IMG/VR virus record: IMGVR_UViG_3300021507_000036
Location: 1-43,645 of that record
DNA: 43,645 nt
Origin: a virus
Reading direction: 5' to 3' (one strand)
Shown: in pieces, positions 1 to 43,645 of the stretch
Numbering within the stretch: position 1 is the stretch's first letter
Layout of the letters: every line of letters starts with the position of its first letter
The notes under the pieces: model-generated
Told to the model about the DNA's origin: nothing
Databases searched by the model: none
Seen by the model: the letters and a program-made list of their open reading frames with translations, nothing else
Translations under genes and position numbers: made by a program

Positions 1-134
1 AGTGTTTTTAAAGTTTTTCTGTTTTCGGGAGAAATTGCTACTAAAAATCCTCTGGTTTTTCTTGACAAGTTCTCTGTGATGTGTTACATTATATATATGA
101 ACGAAACAAAGAAGGAGAACATTATGAACGAAAA
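1..134. repeat. terminal direct repeat, left copy
   Basis: Positions 9-134 are identical to 43520-43645 (126 bases). The first 8 bases also match 43511-43518, but the right copy has one extra C at 43519. This is what a circular assembly, or a circularly permuted or terminally redundant phage genome, looks like. The repeat carries the promoter, ribosome binding site and first codons of the gene starting at 124, so the right copy is the same locus and not a second gene. The single-base difference could be an assembly error in a T-rich run or true variation. Confidence 0.9.
62..90 (+). promoter_or_regulatory. early rightward promoter
   Basis: TTGACA at 62-67, a 17-base spacer and TACATT at 85-90, followed by ATATATATGAACG. 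The gene at 124 follows with a good ribosome binding site. The leftward promoter at 40066-40038 has the same -35, spacer length, -10 and flanking TTTTTC and ATAT(A/G)TATGAA sequence, so the two are probably read by the same polymerase and controlled together. Confidence 0.75.
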
Positions 135-375
135 CAAAAAAACAAACTTACAGATCGTTGCTGAAAAAATGGCAAAAGTTGAAAGAAGAATGAGAAGGAA
201 CGCAACAACTAAACAGGAAAGGATTGAACGTGTTATTGAAAAACACGGTAACAAGGGATTGACTGTAAAACAACTTGCTAACTATGCGAACGTCTCACCG
301 AAAACTTTCAGGACCAGGTGTTCAAAGATGAAAGCAAAAGGCATGATTGACTACAGAATAAGGAAGACTGCATAA
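124..375 (+). CDS. small winged-helix DNA-binding protein
   Basis: Predicted 83-residue basic protein. Residues 1-35 are Lys/Arg-rich. About 36-80 read as a winged helix-turn-helix: a helix (RIERVIEKHG), then LTVKQLANYANVSPKTFRTR as helix-turn-recognition helix, then KAKGMIDYRI as the wing. ATG 124 is chosen over upstream ATGs because it follows AAGGAGA by 5 bases; an in-frame ATG at 76 would lie in the promoter. It is the first gene behind the early promoter and is separated from the rest of the operon by a hairpin and a self-cleaving ribozyme. That suggests a transcription regulator with its own mRNA fate. The fold is inferred from pattern; the target is unknown. Confidence 0.75.
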   Translation: MNENKKTNLQIVAEKMAKVERRMRRNATTKQERIERVIEKHGNKGLTVKQLANYANVSPKTFRTRCSKMKAKGMIDYRIRKTA

Positions 376-389
376 TGAGAACAAAAAGA

Positions 390-415
390 AAGGCTGTCTT
401 GAAAAAGACAGCCTT
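390..415 (+). other. GAAA-tetraloop hairpin between gene and ribozyme
   Basis: AAGGCTGTCTT (390-400), loop GAAA (401-404) and AAGACAGCCTT (405-415) form an 11-bp perfect stem with a GNRA tetraloop. It starts 14 bases after the stop of the winged-helix gene. The downstream sequence is CTACCTGAATG, without a U-tract, so it is a poor intrinsic terminator. It could protect the 3' end of the upstream mRNA after ribozyme cleavage, or attenuate transcription. Confidence 0.75.
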
Positions 416-432
416 CTACCTGAATGATCAAT

Positions 433-481
433 TCCACTCTGATGAGTCCTGAAGGACGAAACGCCGTAAGGCGTCAGTGGA
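433..481 (+). ncRNA. hammerhead ribozyme (type I)
   Basis: All conserved core elements are present in order. Stem I 5' strand TCCACT is at 433-438 and the core CTGATGA at 439-445. Stem II is GTCC (446-449), TGAA loop, GGAC (454-457). Core GAA is at 458-460. Stem III is ACGCC (461-465), GTAA tetraloop, GGCGT (470-474). The cleavage-site C is 475, and stem I 3' strand AGTGGA is at 476-481. Every stem is fully paired. The open helix is stem I, so it is type I. Predicted cleavage is between 475 and 476, which would leave a 22-base 5' extension before the AAGGAGA of the next gene at 504. It lies in the early operon between a regulator and the replication genes, so it should split the polycistronic RNA there. 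Confidence 0.95.
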
Positions 482-503
482 TAAAACACTTAAGGAGAAA
501 TAA

Positions 504-695
504 ATGAGGATAATGATTAAAGGTAGGATGTATCCTTCAAGTAAAGTGTGGATTGATGGGGTGTACATGGGAAGAATAATAAGTAAAGGGAATGGGATGT
601 GGCAAATGAACTCCGACGGCCCACTTTGTTCTTCTCGCATGGGGGCTATTAAACAATATGCAAAAAAGTTGGGAGAATGTTCGTATGAGAAATAA
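504..695 (+). CDS. small hypothetical protein, 63 aa
   Basis: Reads MRIMIKGRMYPSSKVWIDGV and ends KKLGECSYEK. The start follows AAGGAGAAATAA, the first ribosome binding site downstream of the hammerhead cleavage site. The sequence looks like a small beta-rich domain (VWIDGVYMGRI, then GMWQMNSDG) followed by a helix. The end overlaps the next start by 11 bases, indicating translational coupling. No family recognised. Confidence 0.7.
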   Translation: MRIMIKGRMYPSSKVWIDGVYMGRIISKGNGMWQMNSDGPLCSSRMGAIKQYAKKLGECSYEK

Positions 696-1119: not shown

Positions 1120-1689
1120 ATGGAGAATGGTCAAATGCCTGACTTTTTGACAGGCAAGAAAGAAGAAGATCTTTCTGTGAACGACAGTGTTCTGCAGGAA
1201 CTACAAGACAAGGTGGATCACTTACAACACCTGAACGATCTTGTAAAAAAGGCAGAAGAAGATCTTAAGGAATTGAAGAAAGCCCAGACACAGTATTCTG
1301 GAACAGAGATTCCTGAGCTGCTCGCCCGGTATGGTTTATCTGAAATTAAACTATCGTCAGGCGATAAGATAATAATAAAGGAGGACATATCTGTAACGAT
1401 CAAAGACAAGTTCCAGTATTTCAAATACCTGAGAAATGCTGGAGACGACGACATTATTAAAACTGCTTTTGAGTTCGGTCGACTGTCAACAGAAGACTAC
1501 AATAAAGTTGTTGACGCTTTGGATACAACGGGTCTTGACTATATTGGTGAAGATAAAGTACATGGCCAGACTACAAAGAAGTATTTCAAAGAACTTCTTG
1601 GTTTTGGACTGTCGTCTCCCAAGATGAGTTTTGCGGAACTACCTGACTGGGTTAGTATATACCAGTTAAAGAAAACACTGATTAAGTAA
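1120..1689 (+). CDS. early protein with N-terminal coiled coil
   Basis: A 189-residue protein with start ATG 1120 behind AAGGAGA. Residues about 20-58 form an uninterrupted charged coiled coil (LQELQDKVDHLQHLNDLVKK). A globular part of about 130 residues follows, with LLARYGLSEIKLSSGDKI and a beta-rich IIIKEDISVTIKDKF section. It sits 14 bases ahead of the SSB-like gene, a place where many phages keep a small coiled-coil protein of unknown role. From its position it probably acts with the ssDNA-binding protein in replication or recombination. No enzyme motif is seen. Confidence 0.65.
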   Translation: MENGQMPDFLTGKKEEDLSVNDSVLQELQDKVDHLQHLNDLVKKAEEDLKELKKAQTQYSGTEIPELLARYGLSEIKLSSGDKIIIKEDISVTIKDKFQYFKYLRNAGDDDIIKTAFEFGRLSTEDYNKVVDALDTTGLDYIGEDKVHGQTTKKYFKELLGFGLSSPKMSFAELPDWVSIYQLKKTLIK

Positions 1690-1703
1690 AGGAGAAAATA
1701 AAC

Positions 1704-2450
1704 ATGGATAAAATTGATAAAAAAGAAGCAATGAAAAGTTTTTTTAGTGCAGAAGACACAGCAAAAGGTTTTGAGGATATTGACCAGAGTACAATGGCCA
1801 TTCCCTTCCTGAAGATTGCTCAGGCACTATCCCCGGAAATGAAAGAAAACAAACCTGAGTATATCCCTGGTTTAAAGCTGGGTGATATGTTTAACAATGT
1901 CACTCAGGAAATATACGGGAAAGAAATAAACATCATCATTGGGAAGTTTGAACATGGTTATACTGAATGGCTCCCCATGAGAAAAGGCTTTGTCGGTAAC
2001 CATACAGTAGAGGAAGCAATATCCCTTGCGGAAGATAAAACCTTTGGTAAGTGGAAAACAGCTGAAGGAAATATCCTGCAGGAAAACTATGTTTACTACG
2101 TCATTGTAGAAGGCAGAGAGGAACAGGGAGTTCTTATCATGTTGTTGTCTTCCTCCCAGATAAAGAAGGCTAAAAAGCTAAATAAGATATTAACCTCGTA
2201 TGTTATGCCTAACGGTGAAAAAGCTATGCCGTACTATCTCCGCTGGAATGTCAAAACAGTAGAGGAACACAAAGACGAGAATGATTGGTATGGATATTCC
2301 TTTACTTGTCTTGGGTTGATCCAGAATGAAAAACAGTACCTGGCTGTCAAAGAAGAAAGAAAACTGATTGACACTAGGGTCGTTGATTATTCCAACATGA
2401 TTGAAGACCATACATCGGAAGACAGTGATGAGGGAGACACGGGATTCTAA
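1704..2450 (+). CDS. putative ssDNA-binding protein
   Basis: A 248-residue protein with start behind AAAGGAGAAAATAA. The middle (residues 40-215) is beta-rich with aromatic residues (EYIPGLKLGDMFNNVTQEIY; YVYYVIVEG; WYGYSFTCLGL), consistent with an OB-like or SSB-like fold. The last 20 residues are strongly acidic and end DEGDTGF. An acidic tail ending in a bulky aromatic is typical of phage T7 gp2.5-like and bacterial SSB proteins, where it recruits replisome partners. It is followed by a hairpin terminator and then by nuclease, primase and helicase genes. The call rests on tail and context, not a sequence match. Confidence 0.6.
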   Translation: MDKIDKKEAMKSFFSAEDTAKGFEDIDQSTMAIPFLKIAQALSPEMKENKPEYIPGLKLGDMFNNVTQEIYGKEINIIIGKFEHGYTEWLPMRKGFVGNHTVEEAISLAEDKTFGKWKTAEGNILQENYVYYVIVEGREEQGVLIMLLSSSQIKKAKKLNKILTSYVMPNGEKAMPYYLRWNVKTVEEHKDENDWYGYSFTCLGLIQNEKQYLAVKEERKLIDTRVVDYSNMIEDHTSEDSDEGDTGF

Positions 2451-2469
2451 AAAGTAAGTAACGGTTTAT

Positions 2470-2500
2470 AAGACAGGGTTCAACTCCCTGTCTTACTTTT
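2470..2500 (+). terminator. intrinsic terminator or attenuator after SSB-like gene
   Basis: AAGACAGGG (2470-2478), loop TTCAACT and CCCTGTCTT (2486-2494), followed by ACTTTTAT. Upstream, AAAAGTAAG (2450-2458) is complementary to CTTACTTTT (2492-2500), so a longer outer pairing competes for the T-rich part. The T tract is short and interrupted, so termination is probably partial. This would lower expression of the nuclease and primase relative to the SSB-like protein. Confidence 0.65.
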
Positions 2501-2528
2501 ATCACATAAATAAAACAAGGAGAAAGAT

Positions 2529-3176
2529 ATGTCTTATTTAATTACACCTACTTTGTTAGACGCCTATGACTGGTTTAATAAAGCACCACAAAGTTGGAAG
2601 AAAAAAGCATGGGAAGACCTGGTAAGAAAATTGAACAGAACAAGTTGGACACCTACCGCAGCAATTAAAAGAGGAATGGCGTTTGAGAAAAAGGTGTATG
2701 AAAACTGTAACCGGGACCTGGATTCTTTTTCAAGTACGGAGATCTTTAAAGATGTGTGTCGAGAAATAAAAGGGGGAGACTTCCAAAAGAAACTAAAGAA
2801 GATTATTGTTGTAAACGACAAGGAGTATTTACTTTACGGTAAAACAGACGCATGGTTTCCCAATGTGATAAAGGATATAAAAACCACAAAGGAATACAAA
2901 GGAAAATCCAAGTATCTTTCTGGGTGGCAACACATTCTTTATTCTTACATGTCAGGAATAAAAGACTTTAAGTACATCGTTGTAGAATGGGACGACTTAG
3001 AAAAAGACGACACTAAGTTACTTCCAGGAGAACTGTATATCATTGAATATAAAATGTCGTCAAGAGAGGAGAACAAAAAACTTATAGAAGATAAAATTAA
3101 AGACTTTATGGGGTTTATTAACGGGGATACCGAGCTGAGTGAAGCATACTATAATAAGTTTAACTTGTACGGTTAG
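2529..3176 (+). CDS. PD-(D/E)XK nuclease, RecB/Cas4-type exonuclease
   Basis: A 215-residue protein with start behind AAGGAGAAAGAT. Visible motifs of the RecB-like PD-(D/E)XK fold: an N-terminal S/T-P-T-x-L start typical of the family; RGMAFEKKVYE (helix with catalytic Glu); YGKTDAWFPNVIKDIKTTK (motif II Asp and motif III D-x-K) and GWQHILYSYMSG (Q-x3-Y motif). The family removes or trims DNA ends, commonly as the exonuclease partner of phage recombinases. No Cas4-type cysteine cluster is seen. It lies 3 bases ahead of the primase gene, in a replication operon. Confidence 0.85.
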   Translation: MSYLITPTLLDAYDWFNKAPQSWKKKAWEDLVRKLNRTSWTPTAAIKRGMAFEKKVYENCNRDLDSFSSTEIFKDVCREIKGGDFQKKLKKIIVVNDKEYLLYGKTDAWFPNVIKDIKTTKEYKGKSKYLSGWQHILYSYMSGIKDFKYIVVEWDDLEKDDTKLLPGELYIIEYKMSSREENKKLIEDKIKDFMGFINGDTELSEAYYNKFNLYG

Positions 3177-3179
3177 CCT

Positions 3180-4748
3180 ATGCTAGGTAAAATTGATATA
3201 CTAGAGTTTACTAGATTCTTTAAAGGAAATACTAGTGGATACGGTGTTCACATATACGATAAGCCCAACGACAAGGGAGAAAAAAGAAGTGGAAAGAGTT
3301 TAACAAAACTAGAACCACTTACTGAAAGACAGTATATAGAACACTTATCCGGGAACGTTGGTTTAGGAATTAGTCCAATCAATGAAAGAAACAAATGTAT
3401 CTTCTCAGTAATTGACGTAGACGAGTATAAAATAGATTTTAAAAAATACTTTAAGATCAATGAAGATTATAACCTCCCTCTTTGTTTCTTTAGATCAAAG
3501 AGTGGAGGACTTCATATCTATGTTTTCTTTGATCAAGAATACCCAGCAAAAACTGTTACCGAGACCATGAAAAAACTTTTGATTGTACTAGGGTTGAAAA
3601 GTGACACAGAGATATTTCCTAAGCAAACTAAAGTACAAAGAAACAAGATTGGTAACTGGATCAACCTTCCTTACTTTAATGAAAAGAACCCCACCCAGTA
3701 TTTGTATGGTAAGAACGGTGAAAAACTATCACTAACACACGCCCTACAGTATATAAAGAATCAGGTAGTAAGCATTGAAGAACTAAAAGACATTATTACT
3801 TCTGTGCCTTTTGCTGACGCTCCACCATGTTTACAAACACTTTACATTCTGAATGATTTTACTAAAGACTCACATAACAGAAACGACTTCTTGTTTAACG
3901 TGGCTTCATATCTAAAGAATAAATATGAAGATGATTTTCCTGATAAAATAAGAAGTATAAATCAACAATTTCCCGATCCTATAAACGAGAAAGAACTCGA
4001 GTCTACTATAATAAACTCACACCAAAGAAAAACGTATAGTTATAATTGTAAACACCCCGTCTTAGCAAGTGTATGTAATAAAGAAGTATGTAAGAAAAGA
4101 GAGTATGGCATTGCAAGTTTAGAATCACCCAATATTGATTATGGAAAACTAGTTCAATACAAAGGACTATCCACAAGGTATGAATGGGAGATAAACGGTA
4201 AGATACTTAAGTTCGATTCAGAAGATGATATTATTAGTCAGTCTACTTTTCTTAAGTTGTGTATACGAGAATTAAGAGAATATCCTTTTAGACTATCACA
4301 GAAAAGATGGGACAGAGTAATACGGGAAGCCGTTGATGAAATGGAAGTGGCTGTAGATAAGGATGAGTTCTCCAATGAAATACTTTTCAAAGACTACTTA
4401 ATTAAGTTTTTGACAGAAGGAGCAATGGCAAAATCCAAAGAACAGATTGGACTACACAGAGTATATGAAGACCAAAAGGTTGGTTGCTATGTTTTTAAAA
4501 GAGTTGATCTAATGGAGTTTTTGGATTCTAAACACTTCTTTAAATTAAGGCCTAAGGAAATAAAAGAAATAATTTTAAAGATGGAAGGGAGGGAAAAAAG
4601 ATATCACATAAAAGGGAATGTTTCTCTTAAGGTATGGATGATACCATTTAAGTCAGTAGACTTAAGGTATCAGATTATGAACCAATCTGATGAGGAACTA
4701 AAAGAAGATTTTAGTGAGTTTCAAGACGAAGGAGAAAAGGAGTATTAA
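3180..4748 (+). CDS. archaeo-eukaryotic-type (AEP) primase
   Basis: A 522-residue protein. Visible AEP motifs: IDVD (Asp79/Asp81, metal ligands), FRSKSGGLHIYVFF (Ser108-Gly-Gly-Leu-His112), EIFPKQ (Lys148, nucleotide contact) and GNWINLPYF (159-166). This combination matches the AEP branch that includes TOTE-system and phage PrimPol-like enzymes. Cysteines 217, 290, 299 and 304 follow (PPCL; NCKHPVLASVCNKEVCKKRE), a conserved PriCT-like arrangement that may bind zinc or an Fe-S cluster. The last 200 residues are a helical region of unknown role. No helicase domain is fused; the SF1 helicase is encoded 276 bases downstream. It should make primers for the family A polymerase. Confidence 0.8.
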   Translation: MLGKIDILEFTRFFKGNTSGYGVHIYDKPNDKGEKRSGKSLTKLEPLTERQYIEHLSGNVGLGISPINERNKCIFSVIDVDEYKIDFKKYFKINEDYNLPLCFFRSKSGGLHIYVFFDQEYPAKTVTETMKKLLIVLGLKSDTEIFPKQTKVQRNKIGNWINLPYFNEKNPTQYLYGKNGEKLSLTHALQYIKNQVVSIEELKDIITSVPFADAPPCLQTLYILNDFTKDSHNRNDFLFNVASYLKNKYEDDFPDKIRSINQQFPDPINEKELESTIINSHQRKTYSYNCKHPVLASVCNKEVCKKREYGIASLESPNIDYGKLVQYKGLSTRYEWEINGKILKFDSEDDIISQSTFLKLCIRELREYPFRLSQKRWDRVIREAVDEMEVAVDKDEFSNEILFKDYLIKFLTEGAMAKSKEQIGLHRVYEDQKVGCYVFKRVDLMEFLDSKHFFKLRPKEIKEIILKMEGREKRYHIKGNVSLKVWMIPFKSVDLRYQIMNQSDEELKEDFSEFQDEGEKEY

Positions 4749-4749
4749 A

Positions 4750-5034
4750 ATGGAACAAAAAGAACTACAAGATTTATTAAAAGAAATTGAAACAATGGCA
4801 AAAGAACAAAAAGAATTACTCGACACTCTAATTCTAAATAAAGTAATACCTATGATAGAAGAACAAAGAAAATTACTGGATACCATAAACGAGATTTCAC
4901 TTATCCTTGAAGATACAGAAGAACTAACTGTTGATCATACTATAGACGAAGCATTAAAACAGAATGAGTCTATGAATGAAATAGCACTACTTGTCTTTAA
5001 CTACCTGAACGAGAAATACAAAGATGAAAATTGA
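4750..5034 (+). CDS. acidic coiled-coil protein
   Basis: 94 residues, start ATG 4750 behind AAAGGAGTATTAAA. An in-frame extension to 4714 would overlap the primase end without a ribosome binding site. Residues 1-65 form a long acidic coiled coil (MEQKELQDLLKEIETMAKEQ, with further KELLDTL and RKLLDTI heptads). Its end overlaps the helicase start by 11 bases. Between primase and helicase genes it may be a small adaptor that joins them; that is inference from position. Confidence 0.7.
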   Translation: MEQKELQDLLKEIETMAKEQKELLDTLILNKVIPMIEEQRKLLDTINEISLILEDTEELTVDHTIDEALKQNESMNEIALLVFNYLNEKYKDEN

Positions 5035-6415
5035 TATTATCTTTGGACCTCCTGGGACAGGGAAAACAACGAAGCTATTAAACATACTCGAGGATGAACT
5101 AAAAAGACATTCTCCTAAAGAAATAGCCTATGTTAGTTTTTCAAGAAAGGGAGCCTACGAAGGAAAGGACAGAGCACTTATTAAGTTTCCTAAATACTCA
5201 GAATCAGACTTCGAGTATTTCAGAACACTACACTCAATAGCTTTTAGAACACTGGGAATTGGTAAGGGAATGATGATAACCAAGAATCACTATAAGATGT
5301 TCGGGGAGAAACTGGGTTTTAAGTTCTCAGGATATTTCACAGAAGACATGCAGAACACTAAAGATGACGCTTATCTTAATTATGATATTCTCATGAGAAA
5401 CAACAAAGACGCAGCTAAGAAATTACTTGGTACACTCGAAGCTCAACAGTTAAGATATATTCAGTTAAACTATAAACACTTCAGGGAGACGTTAGGTATA
5501 TTAGATTTTACAGACCTGATAGAAATGTTTATCCGTAAAAATAAATCTGTTCCCGTTAAGGTAGCTATAATAGACGAGGCTCAGGACCTGACAAGTTTAC
5601 AATGGCAAATGGTATTAGTAGCTTTCCGTGACTGCGAGAATATTTATATAGCGGGAGACGATGATCAAGCATTATACCAATGGTCTGGTGCAGATGTTAA
5701 GTTCTTTCTGAATATAAAAGGTAACCAACATGTATTGAATAAATCATATAGACTTCCAAGAAACATATTGGAATACAGTAAACTAATTACTAACCTTATA
5801 TCGTTTAGGGCGGATAAAGAATATACACATAACGGAGAAGAAGGAGATATAATTGTAGTAAAACATATTTCAGAGATTGATATGTCGAAGGGTGAGTGGA
5901 TGATAATAAGTAGAAACGTTCAGTACCTATTGGAAGTACAGGACTACTTAAGATCTCAGGCCTTAATGTTTACATACAAAGGGAAGATATCTGTTCCCCC
6001 CTCCCATATTAAAGCTATCAATCAATATGAGAAAAATAGAAAAACAAAAAAAGATGAAAGAATGTATTTACTAGGTGACTTGGTGGATACAACTGTCAAA
6101 CAGAATTATGATAAACCTTGGTACGAGGTTTTTAACTTACATGAAAACATAGCTACTTACTATAGAGATATATTAAGAAGTAAAGTTAACACTAAAGAAT
6201 CCCATATTGAAGTAAATACAATACATGGAGTAAAAGGAGGTGAAAAAGAAAACGTTGTAATACTGTTAGACTACAGTAGAAATGTAAACAAGAATTGGAA
6301 CGAGGACCCAGACTCTGAACTGAGGTGTTACTATGTAGGTGTTACAAGGGCGAAGAAGAACTTGTATATAATACCTTCAAGTAGTAGGTATGGTTTTCCA
6401 TTATTGGAATTATAA
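5024..6415 (+). CDS. UvrD/Rep-like SF1 helicase
   Basis: A 463-residue protein. Walker A GPPGTGKT is at 8-15; FSRKGAYEGKDR and FRTLHSIAFR correspond to motif Ia regions; IIDEAQDLTSLQW is motif II; IAGDDDQALYQWSGAD is motif III; LNKSYRLP is motif IV; VNTIHGVKGGEKENVVIL is motif V and YYVGVTRAKKNLYII is motif VI. This is a compact SF1A 3'-5' DNA helicase, shorter than UvrD (about 720 aa) because the 1B and 2B insertions are small. It probably unwinds the fork for the phage polymerase. ATG 5024 overlaps the coiled-coil gene and has only a weak GAG upstream, so translation is probably coupled. Confidence 0.92.
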   Translation: MKIDIIFGPPGTGKTTKLLNILEDELKRHSPKEIAYVSFSRKGAYEGKDRALIKFPKYSESDFEYFRTLHSIAFRTLGIGKGMMITKNHYKMFGEKLGFKFSGYFTEDMQNTKDDAYLNYDILMRNNKDAAKKLLGTLEAQQLRYIQLNYKHFRETLGILDFTDLIEMFIRKNKSVPVKVAIIDEAQDLTSLQWQMVLVAFRDCENIYIAGDDDQALYQWSGADVKFFLNIKGNQHVLNKSYRLPRNILEYSKLITNLISFRADKEYTHNGEEGDIIVVKHISEIDMSKGEWMIISRNVQYLLEVQDYLRSQALMFTYKGKISVPPSHIKAINQYEKNRKTKKDERMYLLGDLVDTTVKQNYDKPWYEVFNLHENIATYYRDILRSKVNTKESHIEVNTIHGVKGGEKENVVILLDYSRNVNKNWNEDPDSELRCYYVGVTRAKKNLYIIPSSSRYGFPLLEL

Positions 6416-6439
6416 AGAAAGAACAAAAAGAGGTGTGTT

Positions 6440-6976
6440 ATGATTATTATTGAAGGGGCGGACGGATCGGGAAAAACAACGTTAAGTAATATGTTACTTG
6501 CAGCGTTCCCGAAGTTCAGGAGTATACATTCTCCTGGGCCACTGAGTAAAGAAACATTAAAAGAAAGAATGTTCTGGGTTCACGAGATAACTAAATTGGA
6601 CTATGTTATTACTGACAGGTTAACAGTGTTCTCAGAATATGTGTATGGGAATGTTTTAAGGAATAAGTCATTGATTGACCATAAAGATATCAGTCTTTTT
6701 ATTACGAACCTTAAACAGAACCCTACGAACATGGTTGTTTTTTGTGATAGAGATTTCACACCTATCCAAAAAGACCACGGTTCTATTCACTTGAGTTTAC
6801 TACAGAAACGTCAATTAGAAAAGTCTGTGGATAAGAACCTGGAAAAGATAAAAGAAAAATACAGAGAACTGTTTAAGTGGCTATTCAGTACATACCAAAA
6901 AACGCCACATGTAACAATTAAAAAAGAAGAAGATATTATCACGCTATTTAATTTTATAAGGGAGAGATACAGATGA
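6440..6976 (+). CDS. thymidylate-kinase-like deoxynucleotide kinase
   Basis: A 178-residue P-loop kinase: GADGSGKT at 6-13 (Walker A), ITDRLTVFSEYVYG (58-71, the DR-x motif of dTMP kinases) and a helical C-terminus. Length and motifs fit the dTMP/dNMP kinase family, which phosphorylates a deoxynucleoside monophosphate with ATP. The gene overlaps the all-alpha NTP pyrophosphatase by 4 bases and lies 1.8 kb before a dCMP-hydroxymethylase-like gene. Its substrate could therefore be a modified dNMP, as for T4 gp1, and not dTMP. That substrate is inference. Start follows an AGAGGTGTGTT ribosome binding site. Confidence 0.85.
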   Translation: MIIIEGADGSGKTTLSNMLLAAFPKFRSIHSPGPLSKETLKERMFWVHEITKLDYVITDRLTVFSEYVYGNVLRNKSLIDHKDISLFITNLKQNPTNMVVFCDRDFTPIQKDHGSIHLSLLQKRQLEKSVDKNLEKIKEKYRELFKWLFSTYQKTPHVTIKKEEDIITLFNFIRERYR

Positions 6977-7590
6977 ACATTAACGACGTAGAAAGAACAG
7001 ACAAAGAAGAAGTTAAAGACTACCTTCAGGCTATCTTTGAGAAACAACATGCTTTGGCTATAAAGTACCAGCCTATCGAAGCAAGAAGCGGTTTATTACA
7101 GACTACAGATTTCCCTGTTGACATCAACAGTCCTGCGGGACAAGCGAGATTAAAAGATCTTGCATGGAGAACAGTAGAAGAACTGGGAGAAGCAACGGAA
7201 TGTATGGAAGAAAACGAAGAACACTTCAGGGAAGAACTGATAGACGCCCTTCATTTTGCAACGGAACTGGTTCTGTCAACAGGACTGACATATGGAAACT
7301 TTATCTCTCTTGAAGAAATGATGGAAAGAGAAAAAGTATCAGAAGATCTTATTGGTCACCTGTGGAGATTTACAGAAAATCTTGGAATAGCTATGAACTG
7401 CTTAAAGAATAAGCCGTGGAAACAAACACACATGGAAACAGATATTCCTTATTTCACGTCAAGAATTATGAAGATGTATGTATCTTTAATTGATGTTCTG
7501 CATGTAGCGGGAATGAGTGCTGAAGACGTGTATACATATTACTTCAAAAAGAATCAGGTGAACCAGTTCAGACAAAGGAGCATGTACTAA
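6973..7590 (+). CDS. all-alpha dimeric dUTPase/dCTPase-like pyrophosphatase
   Basis: A 205-residue protein. Metal-binding motifs of the all-alpha NTP pyrophosphatase fold are visible: EELGE (69-73) and EELIDALHF (87-95), i.e. E-x2-E ... E-x2-D. The C-terminus FKKNQVNQFRQRSMY matches the K-N-x2-N-x2-RQ signature of dimeric dUTPases. The same family includes T4 gp56, which hydrolyses both dCTP and dUTP so that normal cytosine is kept out of phage DNA. Overlap with the kinase gene and adjacency to base-modification genes make a dCTPase activity plausible; dUTPase alone is the conservative reading. Confidence 0.85.
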   Translation: MNINDVERTDKEEVKDYLQAIFEKQHALAIKYQPIEARSGLLQTTDFPVDINSPAGQARLKDLAWRTVEELGEATECMEENEEHFREELIDALHFATELVLSTGLTYGNFISLEEMMEREKVSEDLIGHLWRFTENLGIAMNCLKNKPWKQTHMETDIPYFTSRIMKMYVSLIDVLHVAGMSAEDVYTYYFKKNQVNQFRQRSMY

Positions 7591-8751
7591 ATGAATGTAC
7601 TAGGTGTATACGGAGGGATCGGTTCTATGTTAGTTGCAGCGAGAAATGCAGGACTGACAGTAGTAGGTAACATAGAACCAAGGTCCTTTGAAGATGGAGA
7701 AACGTTTCTTCATAATTTCCCTGGGACAAAGTTTTCTAAGGGAGAACTAATTAATTGTAAACCTGACTTAATTCTTGGACACCCATCTTGTGGAAGTTAC
7801 TCAGGAATTAACTGGAGACAGGAAAAAGTAGAAAGAGATGAGGTAGAAAACTTTGTCAAAGCAATACAGCATTACGAACCAAGTTTCTTTATTATGGATA
7901 ATCTTCCCAAGATGTTCATAGACTACCCCGCTTCCTTTTGGTATAATGAGTTGTCGGATAAGTATGATATCTCACCTGTCTTTGTAAACAATCGGTTCTA
8001 TGGAAATGCACAAGTAAGAAAAAGGGTGTATGTTATTGGATCATTAAAAGAACTTAAATATGTTCCTGTTCCAGGAGAAGATAATACTTTGTCAACTACC
8101 ACAGAAGATGTGATTAGTTACTTACTTGGAAAAGAAAATACAATCGAGAATCATCATGATGTAAACCCTGACGACTATTGGTCTTCAATGACGAACGTTC
8201 TTAAACCGAACACTAAATCTACTTACCGAGAAATGTATGAACATGTGAAGAACTACCCTGAAGGAAAGTCCTTTAAGTACTTTAAGTCTGACGGGGAAGT
8301 AGGAACTAGGATTGGTCTAACGAAGGTTAAGTGGAAAGATAACTGCGGTACATTGTCAAGTACAGCTCGTCAAATACACCCAATAAGATGTACTCCACTA
8401 ACTATTAAAGAACAACTAATCTTAATGGGTTACCCTGATGATTTTACCATAAAAGGAATGAAGGTTGGTAAAGATGGAACATGGAGAATACGGGGGAAAG
8501 AATATCATCAGGTAAACAAGGGAGTGTGTGTTCAATCAATACAGTACTTTATTGAACAGATAAAACTGTACTATGAAACATCGGGAAGTTATGATCCCAA
8601 GGTTACGACAGGATTAGAAACCTTTTCCCATGACGAGGTAAACAAGTTTAAATATCAGTATTGCCAAAAACCTGGCGTTACTATTGACAGTAAAAAATGT
8701 TCTTTATGTAAATTGAGAAAAATATGTAGTAAGAAAAAGGAGAAAAACTAA
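7591..8751 (+). CDS. C5-cytosine methyltransferase-like protein with variant motifs
   Basis: A 386-residue protein that starts directly after the previous stop. SAM motif I is VYGGIGSM (6-13). Motif IV is GHPSCGSYS (63-71), aligned with the usual GGPPCQGFS: the nucleophile Cys67 is kept but the adjacent Pro is Ser. Motif VI is MDNLPKM (102-108), with Asp103-Asn-Leu in place of Glu-Asn-Val. Motif VIII is QVRKRVYVIG (141-150). TPLTIKEQLILMGYPDDF fits motif IX and VNKGVCVQSI fits motif X. The C-terminus has a four-Cys cluster (CQKPG, CSLCKLRKICSKK). It should flip and attack C5 of a pyrimidine in DNA. Whether it adds methyl, and to which base, is open. A phage Dcm-like orphan methylase is the plain reading. 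Confidence 0.8.
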   Translation: MNVLGVYGGIGSMLVAARNAGLTVVGNIEPRSFEDGETFLHNFPGTKFSKGELINCKPDLILGHPSCGSYSGINWRQEKVERDEVENFVKAIQHYEPSFFIMDNLPKMFIDYPASFWYNELSDKYDISPVFVNNRFYGNAQVRKRVYVIGSLKELKYVPVPGEDNTLSTTTEDVISYLLGKENTIENHHDVNPDDYWSSMTNVLKPNTKSTYREMYEHVKNYPEGKSFKYFKSDGEVGTRIGLTKVKWKDNCGTLSSTARQIHPIRCTPLTIKEQLILMGYPDDFTIKGMKVGKDGTWRIRGKEYHQVNKGVCVQSIQYFIEQIKLYYETSGSYDPKVTTGLETFSHDEVNKFKYQYCQKPGVTIDSKKCSLCKLRKICSKKKEKN

Positions 8752-9452
8752 TGAGGATTTATAAAAATAGTTACGAAGCGATAAGGGAAGTGGAAAGAGA
8801 CCTAATGGAAATGGGAATAACTTACCAGTCTGCTACTTGTCAGGACCAGGATGTACGGGATAATCCGGACTTTGAAACAAAGGAACTATCCCCGTATGCT
8901 TATTCTGTTACTAATCCTGCAATGGACCTAACAGAAATGGTGTTGTATAAGAAAGACCATAACTATCTTTCATGGGTAGAGAATGAAGCCATGGAAAGAT
9001 ACTTTGGTTGTGAAGTAAAAAACCCGGGTTCAGCATGGAAGATCAACAGAGAAATGTGGGAACCCTTTTTACACGAAGGTCTTTTCTCTTATACGTATGT
9101 TGAAAGGTTACAGGAACAGTTACTGTATGCTAAACGTGAACTTAAAAGAAACCCTGCCTCGAGACAGGTTATGCTTACAATGTATGACAGACACCAGGAC
9201 ATGATGAACTGGGGAGGAAAATCCCGTGTTCCCTGTTCACTCAGTTACAACTTCCTGATAAGGAACGGTAAATTAACACTCACCTACACAGAACGCAGTT
9301 GTGACTTTTACAATTTCTTTCAGGCCGATGTTTATTGTGCTATCTTTATGCAGAGAGAAATGGCAAAAGAATTGAACATTCCAGTGGGGAAGTTTACACA
9401 CTTCATTGTATCACTTCATGCTTTCAAAAAAGATATGAAGGATGTATTCTGA
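8751..9452 (+). CDS. thymidylate synthase superfamily, dCMP hydroxymethylase-like
   Basis: A 233-residue protein. SRQVMLTMYDR (137-147), GGKSRVPCSLSYNFLIRNGK with nucleophile Cys162, ERSCDFYNFFQADVYC (181-196) and GKFTHFIVSLHAF (213-225) match the thymidylate synthase core. In ungapped alignment with the usual RSxDxxxGxPxN motif, Asp193 replaces the Asn that selects uracil. Asp there is the mark of dCMP/CMP hydroxymethylases such as T4 gp42. His after the catalytic Cys is Ser163 and the GDxHxY motif is VSLHAF. The tail after the last motif is short (8 residues, versus about 55 in classical enzymes), so the usual C-terminal folate lid is absent. Likely product: 5-hydroxymethyl-dCMP, using methylene-tetrahydrofolate. 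dTMP synthesis is the alternative. Confidence 0.75.
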   Translation: MRIYKNSYEAIREVERDLMEMGITYQSATCQDQDVRDNPDFETKELSPYAYSVTNPAMDLTEMVLYKKDHNYLSWVENEAMERYFGCEVKNPGSAWKINREMWEPFLHEGLFSYTYVERLQEQLLYAKRELKRNPASRQVMLTMYDRHQDMMNWGGKSRVPCSLSYNFLIRNGKLTLTYTERSCDFYNFFQADVYCAIFMQREMAKELNIPVGKFTHFIVSLHAFKKDMKDVF

Positions 9453-9877
9453 TGGATACGGATAAACCAAAATCAGCATGCAGGCACTACGACTATTGTG
9501 GTGCTCCATTCTGTCCGCTTGAAGAAATACCTGCAGACAGGACGTGGTTTATAGACGAAGAGATATGTAGGGTGAATGAACCACCCTACTGGGTTTTAAG
9601 ACAAAAAAAATTAAAGCTTAGAACAAAAGACAATACGACCTGTTACACCTTTAATATGGTTAAGTGGAAGTGCATGATAAAAAAGAACATAGAAGGAATT
9701 AAACCAAGCAACACTTTATCTCAGCAAAAGAAACGTGAGAAAGCATGGATGAAAAACCATAAATTAAAGAAACCTTTATCAGTAAAGGAAAGGGAGGAAA
9801 GAAGAAGAAGGTTAGAGAAAGCACGTCTAGTCAAGAAAAATATGTATGATTCACGCATTGAAAACATACCTTTATGA
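9452..9877 (+). CDS. Cys-rich metal-binding protein with basic tail
   Basis: 141 residues. ATG 9452 overlaps the preceding TGA. Cysteines 10, 16, 21 and 39 (ACRHYDYCGAPFCPLEE; DEEICR), with 64 and 74, suggest a zinc or Fe-S site. Residues 75-135 are very basic (KKREKAWMKNHKLKK; REERRRRLEKARLVKK), consistent with nucleic-acid binding. It is the last gene of the nucleotide/modification block and is separated from the polymerase by 162 bases of structured intergenic DNA. No family named; a role with the modification enzymes is inference from coupling. Confidence 0.7.
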   Translation: MDTDKPKSACRHYDYCGAPFCPLEEIPADRTWFIDEEICRVNEPPYWVLRQKKLKLRTKDNTTCYTFNMVKWKCMIKKNIEGIKPSNTLSQQKKREKAWMKNHKLKKPLSVKEREERRRRLEKARLVKKNMYDSRIENIPL

Positions 9878-10001
9878 GCCTGTGTGTTTCATGTATATAA
9901 ATCATGTATTCAATGCGTTTGATACATAAGTGGTGTAATTATATCAATGTATATGTTTTAATTAAAAATGTATTGACGCTGTATGTTTCATGATATGAAC
10001 A
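9854..10001 (+). promoter_or_regulatory. structured region before DNA polymerase, weak promoter candidates
   Basis: CGCATTGAA (9854-9862) and TTCAATGCG (9909-9917) are a perfect 9-bp inverted repeat, extended by 4 bp past one mismatch, and enclose the stop codon at 9875-9877. The element TGTTTCATG appears at 9885 and 9984. TTGATA (9919-9924) with TATCAA (9942-9947) at 17 bases, and TTGACG (9973-9978) with a poor -10, are the only promoter-like pairs. Separate control of the polymerase gene is plausible but not proven. Confidence 0.4.
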
Positions 10002-10039
10002 TAGCTGACGCTGTGTAAACTGACAATATGGAGGAAAAT

Positions 10040-11917
10040 ATGGACATAAAATATCCTGAATTGAAGGACGCTAAGATCGTTTCTTTAGACATAGAAACGT
10101 TTGATCCGTTCCTAAAAGAAAAAGGCTCGGGTGTATATCGAGATGACGGGTATATACTTGGTGTGTCGTTATTCACTGACACAGGGTTCTCAGAGTATTA
10201 CAACCTTGGTCATTACTACAGAAAAGATACCCGCAGTAGGGAAGAAGAAATTGTATCAAAGTTTAAAGGTAAAAAGAAAACTCATCGATACAGTCATTAT
10301 GACATTGATGTTCAGGAAAGAAGAAAGAACATTAAGTATTTGAAAGATATACTTGGACGAGACACAAGTAAACCCGGTGCTAATTTAAAGTACGATCTTG
10401 ATTGGTTGGAAAACTGGCTGGGTATACGGGTAGGGGGAGATTACTTAGACGTACAAATAGCAGAACCCCTTATCGATGAAAATAAAAGGTATTATAATCT
10501 TGACTCCCTTGGTAAACAATATCTTAGAAGGGGTAAGATGAAAACCGAGATTGACGCTTTCTGTGAAAGGAACCATTTAAGGGGAGACCCACGTCAATGG
10601 TTGTACTTAATGCCTTATGAGATTGTACGTCAATATGCCTTGGAAGATGTTCATATTCCCATGGAAGTGTTTGAAAAACAAAAAATAATCTTAGAAGAAC
10701 AAGGACTTACTGATTTATTTAAAATGGAGATGAAGTTATACCCCCTGTTACTCGAGATGAGAAAAGTGGGTGTTCGTATTGACACAGACGGTCTTGCTAA
10801 AGTGAAAAAGAAAACACTGATAAAGATTGAAGAAAGTAAGAAAAAACTGTTTAACATTACGGGGAGGTACATAAAAATAAATCCTAACTCGGGAGAAGAA
10901 ATAGGTTTTATTCTTGATAAACTGGGGTTAGATTATGAGTTAACTGAGAAAACAAGAAAACCTTCAATCACTAAACCTTGGTTGAAAAATCAATTAGACG
11001 TCCATCCTGTTTTTGGTATTATAAACGACGTTAGGAAATACGAAAAACTAAACAGTACATTCCTTGACTCACAACTCGCAGGTACATTGGTTGATGGAAG
11101 AATACATGGATCTTTCAATCAATTAAAAAGTGACGAGTACGGAACAGTAAGTGGAAGATTTTCTGGGTCCCATCCCAATCTTCAGTTCATGCCTGCTAAT
11201 GACGCAGATATTGGAAAAAGTATAAGAAGATTGTTTATTCCTGAAGAAGACCACGATTGGATCAAGGCAGACTATTCCCAAATAGAAGTGAGAATTATAT
11301 CACACTATGCTATGGGGAACGGTGCAGACGATATAAGAAACTCCTTCATTACTGATAGCTCAACAGACTTTCATCAGTGGTGTGCAGACATGACGGGAGT
11401 TACAAGAAAGTTTGCTAAGCGTATTAACTTTGGTATCTTCTATGGGATGGGCGTAGAAAAACTATGTGTTCAGTTAGGAATGAACAAAGAAGAAGGTTCT
11501 GCTTTCTTAAAAATGTATCATAATAAACTACCGTTCATCAAGAATACAATAAGGAAGGTATCCAATAAAGCTTTAGCTCGAGGTTATGTAATGACAATTC
11601 TTAAAAGACGTAGAAGGTTTCCTGATGGACAACTAACCTACAAAGCTTTTAATTCTATTGTACAGGGAACAGCTGCGGACATAATGAAGAAGGCTATGGT
11701 TGACGCCTACGAAGCTGGAATATTTGATGTTCTTGTTCCACACATTACGGTACATGATGAAATGGATCAATCTAAACCGCGAACCAAAGAAGGAACAGAA
11801 GCAACCATTGAACTAAAAAGAATAATGGAAAACTGTGTTCCTTTAAAAGTACCTATTATTGCAGACTTTGAAATTGGTCCTAACTGGGGAGACTTAAAAG
11901 ATTATACAGGAGAATGA
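10040..11917 (+). CDS. family A DNA polymerase with 3'-5' exonuclease domain
   Basis: A 625-residue replicative polymerase. Exonuclease motifs: LDIETFDP near the N-terminus, NLKYDLDWL, and YALEDVHI (Tyr-x3-Asp), so proofreading looks intact. Polymerase motifs: SGRFSGSHPNLQFMP, motif A KADYSQIEVR, motif B KRINFGIFYGMG and motif C VPHITVHDEMDQ. Phe in NFGIFYG corresponds to E. coli Phe762, the dideoxy-discriminating form. No 5' nuclease domain. ATG 10040 is preferred because GGAGG (10030-10034) lies 5 bases before it; the in-frame ATG at 10028 overlaps that site. It should copy the genome with the AEP primase and the helicases of this operon. Confidence 0.95.
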   Translation: MDIKYPELKDAKIVSLDIETFDPFLKEKGSGVYRDDGYILGVSLFTDTGFSEYYNLGHYYRKDTRSREEEIVSKFKGKKKTHRYSHYDIDVQERRKNIKYLKDILGRDTSKPGANLKYDLDWLENWLGIRVGGDYLDVQIAEPLIDENKRYYNLDSLGKQYLRRGKMKTEIDAFCERNHLRGDPRQWLYLMPYEIVRQYALEDVHIPMEVFEKQKIILEEQGLTDLFKMEMKLYPLLLEMRKVGVRIDTDGLAKVKKKTLIKIEESKKKLFNITGRYIKINPNSGEEIGFILDKLGLDYELTEKTRKPSITKPWLKNQLDVHPVFGIINDVRKYEKLNSTFLDSQLAGTLVDGRIHGSFNQLKSDEYGTVSGRFSGSHPNLQFMPANDADIGKSIRRLFIPEEDHDWIKADYSQIEVRIISHYAMGNGADDIRNSFITDSSTDFHQWCADMTGVTRKFAKRINFGIFYGMGVEKLCVQLGMNKEEGSAFLKMYHNKLPFIKNTIRKVSNKALARGYVMTILKRRRRFPDGQLTYKAFNSIVQGTAADIMKKAMVDAYEAGIFDVLVPHITVHDEMDQSKPRTKEGTEATIELKRIMENCVPLKVPIIADFEIGPNWGDLKDYTGE

Positions 11918-11921
11918 AACA

Positions 11922-12218
11922 ATGAAGACAAATAAAATTGTAGTAACAAGACATAAAGGTCTTGTTCAGTACTTGATAAACAAAGGACTAATCACCAAAG
12001 ATGTTCCTGTAATTTCTCATGCTACTGTAGACGATGTTAGGGGAAAACATGTAATAGGGGTTCTGCCTTTATGGTTAGCAGTGTATACAGATAAAATGAC
12101 GATTGTAAAATTAAGAATACCTACTAACATGAGAGGAAAGGAATTAACGGAAGAAGAGGTAGCAACACTTGCTCCCCAACCCAGGACCTATAAAATACAT
12201 AAAACTAGTTTTAATTAA
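11922..12218 (+). CDS. Csx16-like protein, candidate cyclic-oligoadenylate ring nuclease
   Basis: 98 residues, 4 bases after the polymerase. The pattern IVVTRHKGLVQYLINKGL, then VISHATVDDVRGKHVIGVLP, then LAVYTD, then RIPTNMRGKELTEEE matches, from memory, the CRISPR-associated family Csx16 (Cas_VVA1548): TRH at the start, a conserved SH, G-x-x-VIG-x-LP-x-x-LA and RG-x-EL(T/S). Csx16 proteins accompany type III CRISPR loci and have recently been reported to degrade cyclic tetra-adenylate. In a phage this would switch off second-messenger defence, like the unrelated AcrIII-1 (DUF1874). No cas gene is nearby. A housekeeping phage role for the fold is the alternative. Confidence 0.7.
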   Translation: MKTNKIVVTRHKGLVQYLINKGLITKDVPVISHATVDDVRGKHVIGVLPLWLAVYTDKMTIVKLRIPTNMRGKELTEEEVATLAPQPRTYKIHKTSFN

Positions 12219-43506: not shown

Positions 43507-43519
43507 AGACAGTGTTTTC

Positions 43520-43645
43520 TAAAGTTTTTCTGTTTTCGGGAGAAATTGCTACTAAAAATCCTCTGGTTTTTCTTGACAAGTTCTCTGTGATGTGTTACAT
43601 TATATATATGAACGAAACAAAGAAGGAGAACATTATGAACGAAAA
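43520..43645. repeat. terminal direct repeat, right copy
   Basis: Identical to positions 9-134: promoter, ribosome binding site and first codons of the winged-helix gene. In the closed molecule the SNF2 gene stop (43506) is followed by a 60-base gap and then this promoter. The gap holds AAAAATCC and GGTTTTT arms that could be a weak terminator. Confidence 0.9.

Follow-up and report, generated by a model that had tools for sequence, protein, structure and literature searches.

Does the genome of this uncultured phage carry a self-cleaving RNA in front of its replication genes, and if so, what would the RNA do there? The window, by which we mean the whole 43,645-nt stretch analysed (IMG/VR record IMGVR_UViG_3300021507_000036), carries terminal direct repeats of 130 nt (5-134 and 43516-43645, 99% identity), so the record is probably a complete genome, terminally redundant or circular, whose unit measures 43,511 bp. 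Its minus strand codes for a tape-measure protein, a minor head protein and the large terminase, and a megablast search with the first 20 kb against 50,697 phage records returned no match. At positions 433-481 of the plus strand the initial annotation had recognised a complete hammerhead ribozyme, with the core and the cleavage-site nucleotide C475 correctly placed, and all of these coordinates were borne out by our analysis.

All hammerhead consensus positions are filled at 433-481, where the plus strand reads as the unbroken succession of elements listed in Table 1. The topology is type I, with three paired helices, stem I being open and the other two capped by loops. Specifically, the core CUGANGA...GAA is found at 439-445 and 458-460, A15.1-U16.1 corresponds to A461-U474, and the NUH cleavage triplet on the 3' side is GUC (G473, U474, C475). 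The three stems and the GTAA and TGAA loops, already described from the letters, were recovered when the RNA was folded, the hammerhead being both the minimum free energy (MFE) and the centroid structure that RNAfold gives for 425-490 (-18.8 kcal/mol, z -2.6). Judged by its sequence, 433-481 is a genuine, natural and complete type I hammerhead ribozyme.

Table 1. Features of the ribozyme and of the genes around it (positions in the window).
Feature	Position	Strand	Basis or remark
Sigma-70-like promoter TTGACA-17-TACATT	62-90	+	10/12 matches; upstream of HTH gene
Gene for small HTH-type DNA-binding protein, 83 aa, upstream cistron	124-375	+	phrog_3855, E 1.4e-4
11-bp hairpin between HTH stop codon and ribozyme	390-415	+	RNAfold
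Stem I, 5' strand UCCACU	433-438	+	Sequence, RNAfold; 6 bp with 476-481
Catalytic core CUGAUGA (C3-A9)	439-445	+	Sequence, CM R1
Stem II GUCC/GGAC	446-449/454-457	+	Sequence, RNAfold
Loop II UGAA	450-453	+	A453 is the last loop II nucleotide (L2.4)
Catalytic core GAA (G12, A13, A14)	458-460	+	Sequence
Stem III ACGCC/GGCGU	461-465/470-474	+	Sequence, RNAfold
Stem III loop GUAA	466-469	+	Sequence, RNAfold
Cleavage-site nucleotide C17; predicted cut 475/476	475	+	Hammerhead consensus position
Stem I, 3' strand AGUGGA; predicted 5'-OH end of downstream message	476-481	+	Sequence, RNAfold
U1.7 (+7 from cut), predicted tertiary partner of A453	482	+	Phage hammerhead covariation
Shine-Dalgarno AAGGAG of downstream cistron	492-497	+	Sequence inspection
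First ORF of downstream message, 63 aa, no family match	504-695	+	Family searches
Replication operon	1120-11917	+	DUF7307/Pam3 gp33-like, Pam3 gp34-like, AEP primase, UvrD-like helicase, DNA polymerase A

A type I descriptor finds this single match in the window. Among 300 dinucleotide shuffles of the 43.6-kb sequence none (0/300) had a match when stems of 5/4/5 bp or more were required, and relaxing this to 3 bp or more gave just 5 matches across the 300. We also trained a covariance model (CM R1) on 17 phage hammerheads, leaving the window out; it scores the window hammerhead at 68.1 bits (E ~1e-21, E-values being rough owing to a shortened calibration); the second-best match in the window reaches 11.9 bits (E 0.19, filters off). 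The hammerhead is single-copy in the genome and has no flanking repeat, and a search of IMG/VR for the exact 37-nt motif found no further copy. A scan with the Rfam type I model had been proposed as a check, and its result is divided: RF00163 aligns over its full length and scores 24.3 bits (E 5.7e-4 in 211 nt, 2.8e-5 in a genome search), but this lies under the gathering cut-off of 34, which is a curated threshold and not a biological feature of the family. Consequently the Rfam scan of the window at gathering cut-offs gave no match, and a default scan misses this ribozyme.

Stem I and its surroundings follow a simple rule in phage hammerheads. In 83 loci selected on the core and stems II and III only, stem I is paired at positions 1-6 in 79-81, two of the failures being mis-assigned stems III, and position 7 is paired in only 9. 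By this count the length of stem I is kept at 6 bp, and the position beyond it is unpaired in more loci than chance would predict. The final nucleotide of loop II is Watson-Crick complementary to the one immediately 3' of stem I (position 1.7) in 72 of 79 unique ribozymes, window and relative (L121, see below) excluded, with U-A in 35, A-U in 24 and G-C in 13; the permutation expectation is 36% (relatedness ignored). This was the strongest of 112 position pairs tested, and complementarity persists in 52/59 after collapsing by stem I and loop II. A gapless alignment of 23 sequences including the window (A4) has the pair as A-U (9), G-C (9) and U-A (3). In 99.2% of its cells the structure pairs, a share that falls to about 31-41% when slid, and there are 94 double changes; only stem I and the tertiary pair are independent tests here, since rows had been selected by pairing in stems II and III. 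A search for a more extended loop II pseudoknot gave support to the one pair only. The window obeys the rule with A453-U482, as does L121, likewise with A-U, and the U482-A453 pair fits a predicted loop II-stem I contact as expected of a fast ribozyme.

A contact of this kind, U at +7 with an A of the stem II tetraloop in trans-Hoogsteen geometry, is known to accelerate cleavage (O'Rourke, Estell and Scott 2015, as described in PMC9217987), and the window's ribozyme resembles the minimal hammerheads of that description in having U482 at +7 and A453 as the last tetraloop base. Whereas the contact is described there as an A-U trans-Hoogsteen pair (PMC9217987), A-U, U-A and G-C covary in phages, a pattern which suggests Watson-Crick-like pairing. 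In the open-access literature we found no description of the exchange of this contact for U-A and G-C in phages.

The ribozyme occupies a sense-strand intercistronic position, between the HTH ORF, whose stop codon (375) is 57 nt 5' of it, and the ORF that starts at 504, likewise on the plus strand. The HTH gene product has weak winged-HTH Pfam matches, below cut-off. The hairpin in the upstream spacer was considered as a plus-strand terminator and ruled out, as it has no U-tract on that strand and is terminator-like on the minus strand only. On the other side, the 28 bases that had been counted between the cut site and the next start codon are confirmed as the leader 476-503, ahead of ATG 504. 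Two short ORFs with no assigned function follow directly, then a third (824-1096) common to the relative, and then the replication genes. The HTH gene is the first after the sigma-70-like promoter, yet the plus-strand gene run extends from 43506 across the terminal junction to it, so that, given the terminal repeats and the SNF2-like helicase found upstream in the relative, it is not the first gene of that run. The proposal that the ribozyme separates the first regulator gene from the replication genes therefore stands as regards an HTH-type regulator on one side and the replication operon on the other, and has to be amended in that the regulator is not first of the run and small ORFs intervene before the replication genes.

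One relative, IMGVR_UViG_3300027828_000051 (42,104 bp; L121/L122/L221, hereafter L121), carries a hammerhead at the same site. The replication block is common to both genomes, with 53-76% protein identity for the larger genes and mostly 56-76% for the replication proteins, and the HTH homologue (70% identity over 47 aa) is preceded by the TTGACA-17-TACATT promoter as in the window. In L121 an SNF2-like helicase, which the window has at its far end, lies upstream of the HTH gene; the order is then promoter, HTH gene, hammerhead directly after it, a differing downstream gene and the same replication genes, and the HTH stop codon is the UGA of the hammerhead core itself. The two cores are identical. 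Stems I and III, in contrast, are wholly different, stem I being AUGUGU/ACACAU in L121 versus UCCACU/AGUGGA in the window and stem III measuring 14 bp versus 5 bp, with pairing kept in both through compensatory change. The same core at the same site, with stems I and III rewritten in matched pairs, indicates that the ribozyme is kept there by selection, a conclusion about site conservation that draws on one pair of genomes.

Searches for further copies of this arrangement gave none: no hammerhead was found in 69 more distant gp34 relatives or in 29 further DNA-polymerase relatives (some of these loci stop short of the equivalent region), the HTH protein as a query of viral and genome contigs retrieved no further relatives, and the gp34 alignment found none in genome contigs. 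A stem I extension (CCU/AGG) that would sequester the Shine-Dalgarno sequence was dropped, being absent from L121.

What would such a ribozyme be kept for? In our reading, which we hold to be highly probable, the window contains a natural type I hammerhead, kept by selection, that cuts the early transcript at 475/476 during synthesis. Co-transcriptional cleavage between these two nucleotides would separate the HTH-regulator message from the replication-operon message, leaving the former with a new 3' end, at which the stem III hairpin carries a 2',3'-cyclic phosphate, and the latter with a 5'-OH start and the short leader to ATG 504. Ends with a 5'-OH or a cyclic phosphate are poor entry points for RNases that depend on a 5'-monophosphate or a 3'-OH. 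The benefit would be separate stability and expression for the two messages. That the window hammerhead cleaves is a prediction supported by homology, and we infer the common transcript, cleavage in the cell and the gain in message stability.

Folding of the growing transcript bears on how fast the cut would have to be. In a nearest-neighbour model, transcripts that begin at nt 376 form stem I with a mean probability of ~0.9 at every 3' end up to 506. In RNA reaching ~522-530, an alternative fold in which stem I is open gains an advantage of ~1.9 kcal/mol, and the full leader from nt 98 has a mean stem I probability of 0.16 even at nt 490. Slow cleavage could thus lose the race against the later fold, and the model suggests that cleavage must be quick. 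Since the same model also gives the stem I of L121 little weight, and counts neither the core nor the tertiary contact, these values are weak evidence either way.

To place the locus among phage hammerheads at large, a restrictive pattern with stem II fixed, CTGATGAGTCCNNNNGGACGAAAC, was run on IMG/VR, where at least 119 stretches match. Among the matches listed there are 105 unique sites, 60 of which have type I stems; in 46 of the 60, stem I measures exactly 6 bp. With shuffled flanks, type I stems appear in 7%. Isolated phages carry them too, in apparently unannotated form (Agrobacterium phage OLIVR1, Xanthomonas phage RiverRider and Cellulophaga phage phi19:3). Phage hammerheads of this kind are therefore already known and commoner than the initial annotation held, its description of them as rare being wrong.

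The ~45 pattern matches without type I stems lie in AT-rich phages (for example at L042:379, L094:895 and L110:1893) and have a recurrent element of the TGAGTG/TGTGTG type upstream and an ATG ~30 nt downstream. The idea that they are failures of the pattern was set aside, as their shape suggests type III hammerheads; by inspection, most of them are probably type III hammerheads in 5' leaders before start codons.

The surroundings of 91 type I hammerheads (L002-L121) are those of intercistronic elements. In 50/91 (3.1% at random positions) an ORF of at least 60 aa has its stop codon at or within the 5' part of the ribozyme or immediately ahead of it, and a downstream ORF begins 15-60 nt past the cut in 40/91 (8.5% at random positions), the exact enrichment being soft, as ORFs were called by length alone and the motif contains stop codons itself. 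Overlapping upstream stops are often a UAA at the end of stem I or a UGA in the core. None of ~90 lies wholly within a sense ORF of at least 90 aa, and the hammerhead strand is the local coding strand in 79/89. Upstream ORFs include thymidylate synthase and DNA ligase, downstream ones N4-like RNA polymerases, and the identities of the neighbouring genes differ widely.

Two loci found along the way have arrangements of their own. In L041, five hammerheads sharing one stem I (GTTCAA/TTGRAC) alternate with small genes at 6752-8980, and a sixth lies at 12016. The apparently unannotated hammerhead of phage RiverRider (L193, 2496-2545) precedes a cluster of seven tRNAs by ~350 nt.

The stop codons found at the 5' part of so many of the ribozymes raise an alternative in which the hammerhead is a switch coupled to translation, with ribosomes on the upstream cistron, or a competing long-range fold, controlling the cut, so that cleavage reports translation or timing. 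The frequent stops in or just before the ribozyme, L121 included, speak for it, as does, in the window, the fold that opens stem I after nt 522-530 are made. Against this, a ribosome terminating at the HTH stop of the window would, at that distance upstream, not cover the ribozyme, and the overlap elsewhere may merely reflect compact genomes and the stops that the motif itself contributes (UAA from stem I, UGAUGA from the core); for the window we think such a switch unlikely. A more general form of the idea is that phage type I hammerheads, the window's among them, are intercistronic punctuation tied to translation, the terminating ribosome blocking folding and its departure permitting the cut, with the single loop II/1.7 pair as a minimal tertiary lock. 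We offer this as a speculation that is unlikely, though worth entertaining.

A relic or selfish passenger, left by a mobile element or RNA replicon and of no present function to the phage, might also be found beside widely varying neighbour genes, and eukaryotic hammerheads are indeed often parts of retroelements (PMC6155905). A passenger would hardly be expected to show the perfect core and stems and the compensatory change at the same site in two phages, nor to be single-copy without a flanking repeat, and we consider this very improbable. Even less probable is that what matters is not the splitting of the operon but one of the RNAs so made, the 5'-OH leader or another cleaved piece, acting for instance as a regulator or mimic: the strong 11-bp hairpin adjoining the ribozyme on the upstream fragment would suit such a product, but in L121 no such hairpin is seen between gene and ribozyme, the gene there running into the ribozyme, and the downstream part has an ordinary Shine-Dalgarno sequence and ORF. 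Chance resemblance, for which the RF00163 score below threshold might be cited, can practically be dismissed in view of the shuffles, the 68 bits with an independent model and the syntenic conserved copy.

With the type I family (RF00163) the window's ribozyme has in common the core, the open stem I, A15.1-U16.1, the GUC triplet and the loop II-stem I contact. It differs in its score below cut-off and its short, tetraloop-capped stem III, and, together with the other phage copies, in that the contact seen by covariation is just one base pair, joining loop II to the unpaired nucleotide that directly follows a 6-bp stem I on its 3' side. The RAGATH-1 hammerhead (RF03152) likewise combines a hammerhead core with an upstream hairpin, but the window reaches 26.8 bits against a cut-off of 56.3 and the RAGATH-1 upstream element is unmatched. 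Closest in context are the phage and prophage hammerheads of Perreault et al. 2011 (PMC3088659), which are also intergenic in phage operons; by comparison, the window represents a new phage lineage, with a single copy rather than a cluster and a site, preceded by an HTH gene and followed by replication genes, that is conserved in two genomes. Prophage hammerheads flanking single genes were active in cleavage in vitro, one of them in E. coli as well, and a part in phage transcript processing was proposed in 2011 (PMC3088659), the role of phage hammerheads still being called open by a 2017 review (PMC6155905).

Finally, the simple rule that emerged from the phage ribozymes, a 6-bp stem I, a mismatch at position 7 and a covarying pair between loop II and +7, would help to find many that a default Rfam scan misses. 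In this phage, a single-copy ribozyme at a fixed site with stems I and III rewritten makes one clear function testable, the splitting of the early message.
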